Positions 52,575-55,495 of a DNA stretch of 64,000 bases are shown here, piece after piece. The notes under the pieces are model-generated. The model searched no databases. It was not told where the DNA came from and worked only from the letters and a program-made list of their open reading frames with translations. Position numbers and translations under genes: made by a program. The stretch's first letter is position 1, and each line of letters begins with the position of its first letter. The DNA comes from Kozakia baliensis (GTDB lineage: Bacteria; Pseudomonadota; Alphaproteobacteria; Acetobacterales; Acetobacteraceae), in the NCBI RefSeq assembly GCF_001787335.1, contig NZ_CP014674.1:2336501-2400500 (forward strand). The letters run 5' to 3'.

Positions 52575-53213
52575 TCACCCCCGATAAGTCGGCAGCGCTA
52601 ACCCCTTCCAAATCGCTACCCCCCGCAATCCGAACCCCAATGCGAACGCCACCAAAGCCGCGAATAAATCCGCTGCCCCACAGGTGGTGAGGAGGACGTA
52701 GCTTCCGGCAGCGAGAGCAGCGGCGGTAACGTAGAGCTCGGGGCGGATGACGATAGAGGGTACGCCTGCGAGCACATCCCGGAAGATGCCGCCCATGCAG
52801 GCGGTTACGACGCCCATGATGGCAGCGGGAAGCCAGGGGATGCCATAGGCCAACGCCTTGGCCGCGCCGTAAACGCCATAGGCCGCAAGGCCGATGCCAT
52901 CGAACCAATCAATCGCGCGATCCGGCCAGAAAATGCGGGGTGTGAACCAGACCAGCAACGCCATGATGAGGCAGACGGCAATAGGCGTGGTGGCGTGCAT
53001 CCAGAATACGGGCGCGCCGATCAGTAAATCGCGCACCGTGCCGCCACCAACGCCGGTGATGGCGGCGAAGAAGGCGAAGGTCAGCAGGGTTTGGCGCGCT
53101 TTGGCCGCCACCAGCGCGCCGGAGAGTGCGAACACTGCCGTGCCCGCGAGGTCTAGGTTGGGCAAGGCGGACATATAGAAGGCGTGGATGCCCGCCAGAT
53201 GGTCCGAGATCAT
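52575..53213 (-). CDS. UPF0126 / TRIC-fold membrane protein (proposed glycine transporter)
   Basis: A 212-residue inner-membrane protein with an internal duplication: LDLAGTAVFALSGALVAAKA with GVGGGTVRDLLIGAPVFWMH, and WFDGIGLAAYGVYGAAKALA with CMGGIFRDVLAGVPSIV. Each half is a three-helix TRIC-like unit. Pfam now describes this family as a glycine transporter on riboswitch context; the channel fold is also known. Its ATG overlaps the threonine-aldolase stop (ATGA), which fits a glycine link. Confidence 0.9.
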   Translation of the reverse strand: MISDHLAGIHAFYMSALPNLDLAGTAVFALSGALVAAKARQTLLTFAFFAAITGVGGGTVRDLLIGAPVFWMHATTPIAVCLIMALLVWFTPRIFWPDRAIDWFDGIGLAAYGVYGAAKALAYGIPWLPAAIMGVVTACMGGIFRDVLAGVPSIVIRPELYVTAAALAAGSYVLLTTCGAADLFAALVAFALGFGLRGVAIWKGLALPTYRG

Positions 53214-54235
53214 GCAGTGCAGGCGGCAATATCCGCCGCCAGGGCGTCCACGCGCGCCGGGTCGGCGTCCCACGCGAACATAAAGCGCGCACCACCGCCA
53301 ATGAAGGTATAGAAGCGCCAGCCGCGGTCCCGCAGGGCGATCAGGACGGGTTCGGGCGCGCGCAGGAACACGGCGTTGGCTTCTGCCGGGAACATCAATT
53401 CGATATCGGGCAGGCCCGCTACTTCCGCGGCCAGCCGCGCGGCGCAAGCATTGGCGTGCGCGCCGTTGCGCAGCCACGCGCCGGTTTCCAGCAGGCCGAT
53501 CCAAGGGGCGGCGAGAAAGCGCATTTTGGAGGCGAGTTGTCCGGCTTGTTTGCAGCGGTAATCGAAGCCTTCCGCCAAGGTGCGGTCGAAGAACAGGATC
53601 GCCTCACCCACCGCCATGCCGTTTTTGGTGCCACCGAAGCAGAGCACGTCCACACCCGCTTGCCATGTCATTTCCGCAGGCGTGCAGCCCAGGGCGGCGC
53701 AGGCATTGGCGAAGCGCGCGCCATCCATATGCAGTCGCAGGCCAAGTTGGCGGCAAATAGCCGAGATCTCGCGGATTTCGTCGAGCGAATAGACTTCGCC
53801 GGTCTCGGTGGGCTGGGTAATCGTCACCGCGCGGGGCTTAGGGTAGTGGATATCGGCGCGGCAGGTGGCCAGGGCACGGATATCGGCGGGCGTCAGCTTG
53901 GCGTTATCAGTGCGGGCGACCAGGAGTTTGGAGCCGTTGGAGAAGAATTCCGGTGCGCCGCATTCATCGGTTTCGACATGCGCGAAGGAGGAGCAGATCA
54001 CGCTGTTATAGGATTGGCAGAGCGCAGCTAGGGCCAGGGAGTTAGCCGCTGTGCCGTTGAAGGCGAAAAAGACTTCGCAATCCGTTTCGAACAGGCGGCG
54101 AAAGGCTTCGGCGGCGCGGGTGGTCCAGGGGTCTTCGCCATAGGCCGGGACCGAGCCTTGGTTGGCGTCTTGCATAGCCGCCCAAACCTCAGGGCAGATA
54201 CCGGCGTAATTGTCGCTTGCGAATTGCTGGGCCAC
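53210..54235 (-). CDS. Low-specificity threonine aldolase
   Basis: A 341-residue fold-type I PLP enzyme cleaving threonine (or allo-threonine) to glycine and acetaldehyde. Evidence is FASDNYAGICPEVWAAM, GTAANSLALAALC, Asp171 in LHMDGARFANA and PLP Lys204 in CFGGTKNGMAVG. It closely resembles LtaE. Coupled to the UPF0126 gene. Upstream is a highly structured 150-bp region. Acetaldehyde would join ethanol-acetic-acid metabolism. Confidence 0.94.
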   Translation of the reverse strand: MAQQFASDNYAGICPEVWAAMQDANQGSVPAYGEDPWTTRAAEAFRRLFETDCEVFFAFNGTAANSLALAALCQSYNSVICSSFAHVETDECGAPEFFSNGSKLLVARTDNAKLTPADIRALATCRADIHYPKPRAVTITQPTETGEVYSLDEIREISAICRQLGLRLHMDGARFANACAALGCTPAEMTWQAGVDVLCFGGTKNGMAVGEAILFFDRTLAEGFDYRCKQAGQLASKMRFLAAPWIGLLETGAWLRNGAHANACAARLAAEVAGLPDIELMFPAEANAVFLRAPEPVLIALRDRGWRFYTFIGGGARFMFAWDADPARVDALAADIAACTA

Positions 54236-54262
54236 GTTCGTGCTCTCCGTTCCGTTTCAAAA

Positions 54263-54419
54263 AGGCCCAAGTGCGGATCGGCGCGTGGCTCTTCCCGAAG
54301 TTGCCGGTTCTGGCCACATCCCTTCGTTTTCACGAAGGCACCACCTTGCTTGGGAGCAGGTTGGTGCCGGGTTTCGAGGCCCGGCTCTTGATGCTGGGAT
54401 TGTCCCTATCAAAGCCGGG
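54263..54419 (-). ncRNA. Candidate structured leader RNA upstream of ltaE (unidentified)
   Basis: Read on the minus strand towards ltaE, this stretch contains successive hairpins. First, GCCCGGCT / AGCCGGGC encloses TTGAT / ATCAA and GGG / CCC (54419 down to about 54378). Then GGCACCA / TGGTGCC encloses a CCTGCT / AGCAAGG stem. Then CCTTCGT-GAAA-ACGAAGG follows, a GNRA tetraloop hairpin, and finally GTGGC / GCCAC. The 3' arm AGCCGGGC can instead pair with CCCGGC downstream, giving mutually exclusive folds. I do not recognise a known riboswitch: the glycine aptamer core is not visible. It could equally be a dispersed palindromic repeat. Confidence 0.4.
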
Positions 54420-54454
54420 CATATTGCGCAATTGAGGGTGAAAAACAGAGGCGC

Positions 54455-54933
54455 TTACAGATCGAAGCGCGCACTGAGGAAAACGGCGCGCGGAACACCG
54501 ACGAAAAAGTAGCCCGAGCTTAGAAAGCCCCAATAATGGAGGTTGGTCGCGTTATCGAGTTCCGCGCGGAAGGTGACTTTATGCTGGGCGATTTGTGTGC
54601 GGTAGCTGGCGCGCAGCTTGAGTAGTGGAGAGGCCCGGGAACGGCTTGGATATGATCCGTCTGTTGGAACATGTTCTGGAAAAGCGGGATGCCTTCGATC
54701 TTCTTGCCCTGAAAATCGGGTTCCGTCTGACTGTATTTGCCGCCTTCCACCTGATCGGAGCGAATGGGCGGCAGGGTCTGGCGGGCCGACGGCTGCATAG
54801 GCAGATGGCGCGTCAGCCCCTGCCGTGAAGCGCCCGCAGTGATGTCGTGAAGGATGAATCCGATATGGAAGCGGCCTTCGAGGATGGCTTGGACGAAGTC
54901 GTATTCCGCCCAGCTTCCAGGGTTGGCATTCAT
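54455..54933 (-). pseudogene. TonB-dependent receptor remnant
   Basis: Minus-strand fragments of a siderophore-type outer-membrane receptor. One frame reads AEYDFVQAILEGRFHIGFIL, then HDITAGASRQGLTRHLPMQP and later YSQTEPDFQGKKIEGIPLFQ, typical mid-barrel sequence. A frameshift (near 54610-54640) leads into SPLLKLRASYRTQIAQHKVT, then FRAELDNATNLHYWGFLSSG and the terminal FLSARFDL at a stop (54455), the normal receptor C-terminus. The plug domain, most of the barrel and any signal peptide are missing. It is a decayed, internally deleted gene lying between GNAT and ltaE. Confidence 0.85.
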
Positions 54934-54946
54934 ATTTTTTGACGCT

Positions 54947-55495
54947 TTAGCTTTGTAAATTCTCTTGGCTTCTCTTTCTCTCGAACATCAGCGTGTCCTC
55001 CTCCATAAAGAACGTATGGGTGAGAAACGCGAAGCCAAGCTTTTGGGCGAGGCGTTTGGAAGCCTGATTGGCCGGTGCGATAATGCACACGCAGCGTTCA
55101 TATGCCGTTTGCGTGTCGAGCCAGCGCAGAGCAGCTTGCGCCCCTTCGGAGGCAAAGCCGCGCCCATGCGTCCACGAAGCCAGAACCCAGCCTGCTTCCG
55201 GCACGCCGTCGATGGAAGGCGAGAGACCGCGATGGAAGTCGCCGAAGCCGATATTGCCAATGAAGCGCCCGGTTCCCTTTTCCTCCGCCGCCCAATAGCC
55301 ATAGCCTAAAATTCCCCATAGCCCGCGATATTGCAGAAGCTTGGACCAGCTATCCTTAAGGCTTGCCGGTTTGCCGGTGGTGTATTTCGCGATGACCGGA
55401 TCGGCCCGCATGGCGGCGAAGGCTTCGAAATCGTTCTGGGTGTGAGCGCGCAAAATCATCCGTTCCGTTTCGAGAACGGGGACTGTCTCCGTCAT
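54947..55495 (-). CDS. GNAT acetyltransferase (RimJ/RimL type)
   Basis: A 182-residue acetyl-CoA-dependent N-acetyltransferase: VLETERMILRAHTQNDFEAF, FIGNIGFGDFHRG, EAGWVLASWTHGRGFASEGA (the acetyl-CoA loop) and ANQASKRLAQKLGFAFL. The RimJ/RimL class acetylates ribosomal proteins, small molecules or antibiotics; the target is unknown. It follows the PhzF gene by 10 bp and is probably in one operon with it. Confidence 0.92.
   Translation of the reverse strand: MTETVPVLETERMILRAHTQNDFEAFAAMRADPVIAKYTTGKPASLKDSWSKLLQYRGLWGILGYGYWAAEEKGTGRFIGNIGFGDFHRGLSPSIDGVPEAGWVLASWTHGRGFASEGAQAALRWLDTQTAYERCVCIIAPANQASKRLAQKLGFAFLTHTFFMEEDTLMFERKRSQENLQS

Follow-up and report, generated by a model that had tools for sequence, protein, structure and literature searches.

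The structured region upstream of the threonine aldolase gene ltaE in Kozakia baliensis is, judged from its covariance-model match and compensatory base changes, the aptamer of a SAM-I/IV riboswitch, with SAM as the expected ligand. We put the probability at about 0.85 that this region belongs to the 5' leader of ltaE, that transcription starts near helix P1 of the aptamer, and that translation is repressed when SAM is bound. This reading draws on computed results: the identity of the aptamer, its covariation, the placement of a promoter, a covarying alternative strand, and the recurrence of the RNA before ltaE. The SAM-I/IV class is already known, and the ltaE leader is another member in a recurrent place. 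The less expected part is that, in many relatives, a sensor of the methionine pathway lies in front of a gene for glycine production.

All positions refer to the window, the whole stretch of DNA that was analysed (64,000 nucleotides). The relevant features are listed below.

54426–54431, minus strand: -35 element TTGCGC, its TTG 38 nt upstream of the P1 CATC
54406–54412, minus strand: -10 element TTGATAG, at the TA peak found 13–15 nt before P1 in relatives
54287–54399, minus strand: SAM-I/IV riboswitch aptamer (RF01725; cmscan, Rfam 15)
54390–54394, minus strand: P1 5' strand GCATC, partner GATGT at 54320–54316 (Rfam alignment and 40-leader alignment)
54366–54385, minus strand: P2 hairpin GCCGGG..CCCGGC (54385–54380 with 54371–54366), continuous and without internal loop; 5 of 6 pairs change on both sides in 40 sequences
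54340–54365, minus strand: P3 with the conserved core CCAACC..GCAAGGUGG (CCAACC/GGUGG); 7 of 8 counted pairs invariant and 1 changing on both sides in 40 sequences
54352–54355, minus strand: P3-loop strand UCCC of the pseudoknot, pairing with GGGA 54296–54293 (covariation)
54321–54338, minus strand: P4 hairpin, GNRA stem CCTTCGT-GAAA-ACGAAGG; all 5 counted pairs vary on both sides
54303–54314, minus strand: P5 hairpin GCC..GGC; 2 of 3 pairs invariant
54293–54296, minus strand: 3' strand GGGA of the pseudoknot (covariation)
54285–54289, minus strand: proposed switch strand GCCAC, able to pair either with GUGGC 54317–54313 (P1 3' end/P5) or with the start-codon GUGGC 54235–54231 (covariation, folding)
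54245–54248, minus strand: probable Shine-Dalgarno sequence GGAG, 9 nt before the start (linker analysis)
53210–54235, minus strand: ltaE, low-specificity L-threonine aldolase, GTG start (PF01212, E 1.4e-65)
52575–53168 (start provisional), minus strand: next gene, protein of the Pfam 'Glycine transporter' family (PF03458, E 7.6e-37)

Identity and conserved fold of the aptamer

RF01725, the SAM-I/IV riboswitch, is the sole match over its gathering score in the 64-kb window. The match runs from 54399 to 54287 on the minus strand, spans the full model (1–99), and scores 52.6 bits against a gathering score of 41.1 (E 9.4e-6 for the whole window and 7.4e-8 for 501 bases). The original prediction had left this region unidentified and proposed an Rfam scan; that scan gives it a class with a score over the cut-off. 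RF01725, and neither SAM-I nor SAM-IV, is the best clan match at the site; one lower-scoring overlapping match of the same clan, not named by the tool, was dropped. The glycine, cobalamin, and ZTP riboswitch models are all absent among the five Rfam matches up to E 10 in 54100–54600. These three aptamers, of which the original prediction had likewise seen no conserved core, are thus rejected.

The region has a single copy. A search of the genome with the 157-bp DNA, suggested as a check by the original prediction, returned only the region itself, and RF01725 has one match in the source genome; the region is therefore not a repeat family there. A dispersed palindromic repeat had been raised as the main alternative, which would leave the region without a role in gene regulation. 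Nothing was found in its favour. It is contradicted by these single matches, and the RNA lies in the same place before ltaE across many genera; we give this alternative virtually no chance.

The hairpins predicted on the minus strand between 54263 and 54419 are present, including the GNRA stem (54338–54321), and they are more stable than expected from shuffled sequence. The 157-nt segment folds at -66.6 kcal/mol, compared with -53.0 ± 4.2 kcal/mol for 200 dinucleotide shuffles (z -3.3), none of which was as stable. For the 113-nt aptamer alone, z is -3.1, with 2 of 200 shuffles as stable.

The aptamer structure is maintained by covariation. We scored it on a MAFFT alignment of 40 chosen leaders (A1: the window, 29 of 37 named hits, and 10 family loci), with the structure laid down by hand from the Rfam alignment and the pseudoknot. 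Helices P1 to P5 and the P3-loop pseudoknot are paired in 97.8% of cells, which none of 500 shuffles equalled. Fourteen of the 31 pairs changed on both sides, with 92 such cells against 25.6 in shuffles. When partners were slid by 1 to 3 columns as a control, only 36–51% of cells paired. This covariation in homologous leaders, a comparison that the original prediction had also proposed, shows that the structure is not due to chance.

Individual elements of the SAM-I/IV fold are likewise well preserved. P2 forms six contiguous pairs in the window and is paired in 98.7% of cells across the 40 sequences; P4 is present, with 96.9% paired, and P5 reaches 100%. The pseudoknot is paired in 91.2% of cells, and 2 of its 4 pairs change on both sides. 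In the window, the cell at pseudoknot columns 60/123 (A/C) is unpaired, and UCCC/GGGA does form. The family alignment, after removal of short hits, L086, and duplicates, retained 86 of 91 rows. For the pseudoknot test, 83 of 91 family rows could be parsed, of which 58 were distinct; they form a mean of 4.47 bp, compared with 4.04 ± 0.09 when tails were dealt anew (0 of 1000 as high), a kind of shuffle which, like those dealing letters anew, leaves sequence relatedness in.

Predicted promoter, probable leader extent, and proposed expression platform

The aptamer is preceded by a promoter of conserved position. Among 87 distinct upstream regions from 25 genera, 82 have a TTG located 35–42 nt upstream of P1; in control windows the mean count is 6 and the highest 15. 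With the same 87 regions aligned on CATC, TA peaks 13–15 nt upstream of P1. The -35 element was not flagged by a simple sigma-70 consensus scan of the window. From the conserved spacing, transcription most probably starts near 54400, rather than at 54419, and the leader extends to the ltaE start codon at 54235.

This placement bears on the switch originally proposed, in which AGCCGGGC would pair either with an upstream GCCCGGCT or with a downstream CCCGGC. Both pairings exist in the DNA: the downstream one is P2, and the upstream one is a nested palindrome (54420–54413 with 54386–54379). The exclusive fold is doubtful, since GCCCGGCT (54420–54413) sits between the -35 and -10 elements. It is probably not transcribed as part of the leader, so an exclusive fold with AGCCGGGC is most likely impossible in the mRNA, and we consider the upstream strand an unlikely switch partner. 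Competition of GCCCGGCT with P2 could still be argued from the complementarity of GGCUUUGAU to AUCAAGAGCC, which inspection by eye shows for the window and for most g85 and g9 ltaE sites, and from the upstream pairing that forms when 54419–54263 is folded alone. However, the segment lies between or on the conserved -35 and -10 positions, and the complementarity is absent by eye in g42 and g95, which keep the promoter spacing. We therefore regard such competition as very unlikely. The mutually exclusive helix that has support lies downstream, between GUGGC 54317–54313 and GCCAC 54289–54285.

Two further observations concern the DNA upstream of the promoter. The minus strand at 54433–54960 seems, by eye, to hold the C-terminal part of a TonB-dependent receptor, its reading frame broken, with an ending FVGVPRAVFLSARFDL that we take to be the C-terminal motif of such receptors; a 54-residue piece from this part had no Pfam or NCBIfam match. 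There is also a terminator-like site at 54470–54451, and such sites are expected by chance as well.

A strand that could serve as a switch follows the aptamer in many relatives. GCCAC or GCCGC is found after the pseudoknot strand, and it varies with the last base of P1 (GAUG-U/C-GG). The test of this alternative helix parsed 87 of 91 family rows, 71 of them distinct. A perfect 5-bp helix is possible in 48 of the 71 distinct rows (GUGGC/GCCAC in 27, GCGGC/GCCGC in 21), and none of 1000 dealt-anew sets was as good. Both combinations are found within each of the genera g44 and g95. The helix scored weaker on the 40 leaders of A1, whose 3' ends align poorly: 86.5% of cells were paired, 13 of 500 shuffles were as high, and for pair types 388 of 500 were. 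Formation of this helix excludes lower P1 and P5.

Energy calculations are consistent with an exchange of partners. In folds of the window leader, GCCAC pairs with the aptamer GUGGC with a probability of 0.75 when the ensemble is free; enforcing the aptamer lowers this to 0.001, and the probability of pairing with the start-codon GUGGC rises from 0.05 to 0.17. The second GUGGC arises from the start-codon context GTG GCC, shared by the window, g85, and g9. When linkers were folded alone, 8 of 10 distinct GTG-start linkers from these three sources had a minimum free energy structure in which GCCAC is paired with the start codon, L066 and L079 being the two exceptions.

The Shine-Dalgarno sequence is, on average, also more hidden than expected. 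Across 30 distinct ltaE linkers it is unpaired with an average probability of 0.24, compared with 0.45 in shuffled linkers; four linkers, L065, L067, L071 (g30), and L066 (g9), have it more open than their shuffles. In the window, it is unpaired with a probability of 0.39 and in shuffles with 0.48, a slight difference only, 36 of 100 shuffles being as low. The window start codon is largely paired in every computed state, also through UUGGGCC 54270–54264 with GGCCCAG 54233–54227, and the energy model of the window leader did not have the switch opening it. Because of this pairing in all states and the weakly hidden Shine-Dalgarno sequence, we grade a translational OFF switch at ltaE as likely only.

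From these elements we infer that SAM is bound and that binding turns ltaE off at translation. Transcription would begin a few nucleotides ahead of P1. At high SAM levels, binding of the ligand to the P1/P3 core would stabilise P1 and P5 together with the P3-loop pseudoknot. This would leave GCCAC available for the GUGGC in which the GTG start codon lies, and translation would be repressed. At low SAM levels, GCCAC would instead pair with GUGGC at the 3' end of P1 and the start of P5, and ltaE would be expressed.

The same SAM-I/IV aptamer might instead regulate transcription by way of a terminator or Rho, with no action at the start codon. At two sites of one family genome (L002 and L032, both in G076), a hairpin and a run of T come directly after the SAM-I/IV copies, so the family may also contain a platform that works on transcription. 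A transcriptional read-out could also use the TTTTT run at 54263–54259, and it would fit the predicted pairing of the window start codon in every state. Against it, the window has no terminator-like site between the aptamer and the ltaE start, which speaks against an intrinsic terminator as the read-out there, and on average ltaE linkers hide the Shine-Dalgarno sequence more than shuffled linkers do. We consider transcriptional control unlikely, and continue with translational repression as the preferred reading.

Recurrence before ltaE and other genes

SAM-I/IV riboswitches recur before ltaE within the Acetobacteraceae. RF01725 is found in 90 of 397 family genomes at E <= 0.01, and over the cut-off in 80 of 397. 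Of 94 family places, 91 were taken; G341, which lay at a contig edge, was left out, as were G139 and G324. The first gene after the RNA at these 91 sites is ltaE in 32, metA in 16, a protein of about 97 amino acids in 30, and other or unclear in 13. With metA, which encodes homoserine O-succinyltransferase, the same RNA has a classical target in the methionine pathway; one of the 16 had a PF04204 match.

The association extends beyond the family. In the best 80 of at least 583 named-genome LtaE relatives, RF01725 over the cut-off lies directly upstream of ltaE at 37 loci, which by successive twenties number 13, 18, 5, and 1. By record title, these loci are mostly from Sphingomonas and relatives (Novosphingobium, Sphingobium, Altericroceibacterium), with others in Asticcacaulis, Phenylobacterium, Pseudaquidulcibacter, Nitrospirillum, Pleomorphomonas, Acetobacter, and Gluconacetobacter. 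They also include the betaproteobacterium Uliginosibacterium, a Rhodocyclaceae MAG, and one Arthrobacter record. Among the same 80, no ltaE locus with a Pseudomonas title reaches the RF01725 cut-off. Two of the records may be mislabelled: L127 (Arthrobacter sp. TPD3018), where ltaE with the same leader sits amid Sphingomonas-type rows, and L092 (Rhodocyclaceae MAG UBA1310), whose ltaE is the closest to that of the window among the matches listed (86%).

A class-wide sample gave a different picture of the targets. RF01725 occurs in 35 of 385 genomes at 39 places, of which 28 were new loci and were read. By tblastn, ltaE follows the RNA at none of these 28 loci, four have metA, and three have what looks like metF (by eye, from the translation). 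The zero count argues against ltaE as the main target across the class. Taken with its presence at 32 of 91 and 37 of 80 sites, it makes ltaE a recurrent, not universal, target of the SAM-I/IV riboswitch.

Other genes that follow the RNA are less familiar. The protein of about 97 amino acids has a WTHxYRV-like motif and lies directly after the riboswitch in eight genera (L028:1647–1937 and a further 29 loci in the range L004 to L072). Members that were tried gave no Pfam or NCBIfam match, except that 1 of 12 had a weak Pfam match (E 0.099), and a profile found no PDB match up to E 1. It could be a SAM-regulated protein. In small class genomes of 1.3–1.4 Mb (loci L179, L183, L187, L189), the RNA precedes similar proteins of 220–225 amino acids that look by eye like outer-membrane proteins and not like a methionine gene.

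The closest solved structure to the LtaE of the window is 5vye, an L-threonine aldolase (E 2.4e-171); LtaE falls below the cut-offs of the NCBIfam threonine-aldolase models. The next gene had been proposed as a glycine transporter. Its PF03458 match bears out the family, but of 32 family ltaE sites only 12 have a homologue after ltaE (L054, with 1.2 kb of downstream sequence, is among the other 20). None of the 80 named ltaE loci has one in flanks of up to 3 kb. A glycine transporter as a conserved target is thus ruled out.

These glycine genes are the reason to weigh another ligand. The leader could carry a diverged aptamer of the SAM clan that senses glycine, S-adenosylhomocysteine, or a threonine-related compound, as the aldolase target and the transporter homologue at 12 of the 32 sites would fit. 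The ltaE leaders nevertheless have the same invariant core in A1 as leaders from other sites, metA included, metA is a gene of the methionine pathway, and the search of 54100–54600 up to E 10 returned no glycine riboswitch. A different ligand is therefore extremely unlikely in our view. The original prediction of a metabolite-sensing cis-regulatory RNA before threonine aldolase was right about the type of RNA and not about glycine, since SAM is expected.

Possible metabolic meaning and comparison with known riboswitches

A reasonable purpose for SAM control of ltaE would be the supply of glycine and one-carbon units under low SAM. Expressed ltaE would convert threonine to glycine, glycine cleavage would yield one-carbon units, and the methyl group of methionine could be remade. 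The genome has family matches for glycine decarboxylase (gcvP) and SHMT (glyA). For methylene-THF reductase it has only a sub-threshold match (23.2 bits, cut-off 24), and MetA had no match in the genome; thus, the metabolic rationale is incomplete.

To our knowledge, the methionine regulon is not generally taken to include threonine aldolase. We found no report in the open-access literature, at the level of titles and the start of abstracts, of a SAM riboswitch before threonine aldolase, and none there of a SAM riboswitch in Acetobacteraceae or of a glycine riboswitch with UPF0126. In the available text of PMC2864571, which introduced the class, the main text does not contain 'threonine', and its supplementary notes may list the link; the available text of PMC4239095, on methionine regulons of proteobacteria, does not contain 'threonine aldolase'.

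We tentatively suggest, at somewhat under even odds, that in some Alphaproteobacteria SAM directly gates the threonine-to-glycine step through a SAM-I/IV swap-strand platform, in which the GUGGC of aptamer P1/P5 mimics that of the ltaE start codon. If this is true, the SAM feedback loop takes in glycine and one-carbon supply, beyond the backbone pathway of methionine. The survey points to threonine aldolase as a gene recurrently under a SAM-I/IV riboswitch in Acetobacteraceae, Sphingomonas-type bacteria, and Caulobacterales. This offers a testable link between SAM level and the supply of glycine or one-carbon units, and a proposed GCCRC swap-strand expression platform.

Hiding of the start region has a precedent. 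In the Xanthomonas SAM-I riboswitch, as described in the available text of PMC7270179, the Shine-Dalgarno sequence and start codon are hidden with SAM bound. The X. campestris leader, which precedes the met operon, would thus resemble the ltaE leader in the read-out proposed here, but differs from it in aptamer class and target (PMC7270179).

The aptamer shares features with each of the related SAM classes. Like SAM-I (S box), it has the P4 helix and the ligand core, which the available text of PMC6890682 describes as common to both. Unlike SAM-I, it has a P2 without a kink-turn and a pseudoknot that joins the P3 loop to the 3' tail. With SAM-IV it shares P5 and this pseudoknot, which corresponds to PK-2 of PMC6890682 in the part of that paper available; it differs in that P4 is present and P2 is unsplit, with no P2a/P2b. 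An unsplit P2 with a P4 helix marks the SAM-I/IV class, and the P3-loop/tail pseudoknot beside P5 is described for SAM-IV, of which SAM-I/IV lacks only PK-1, according to the available portions of PMC6890682 and PMC2864571. The ltaE leader matches SAM-I/IV (RF01725) in its score over the cut-off, continuous P2, P4, P5, and P3-loop pseudoknot. It differs from that family in its target, which is ltaE and not a methionine gene, and in the frequent GCCRC strand past the pseudoknot, at or beyond the end of the Rfam model.
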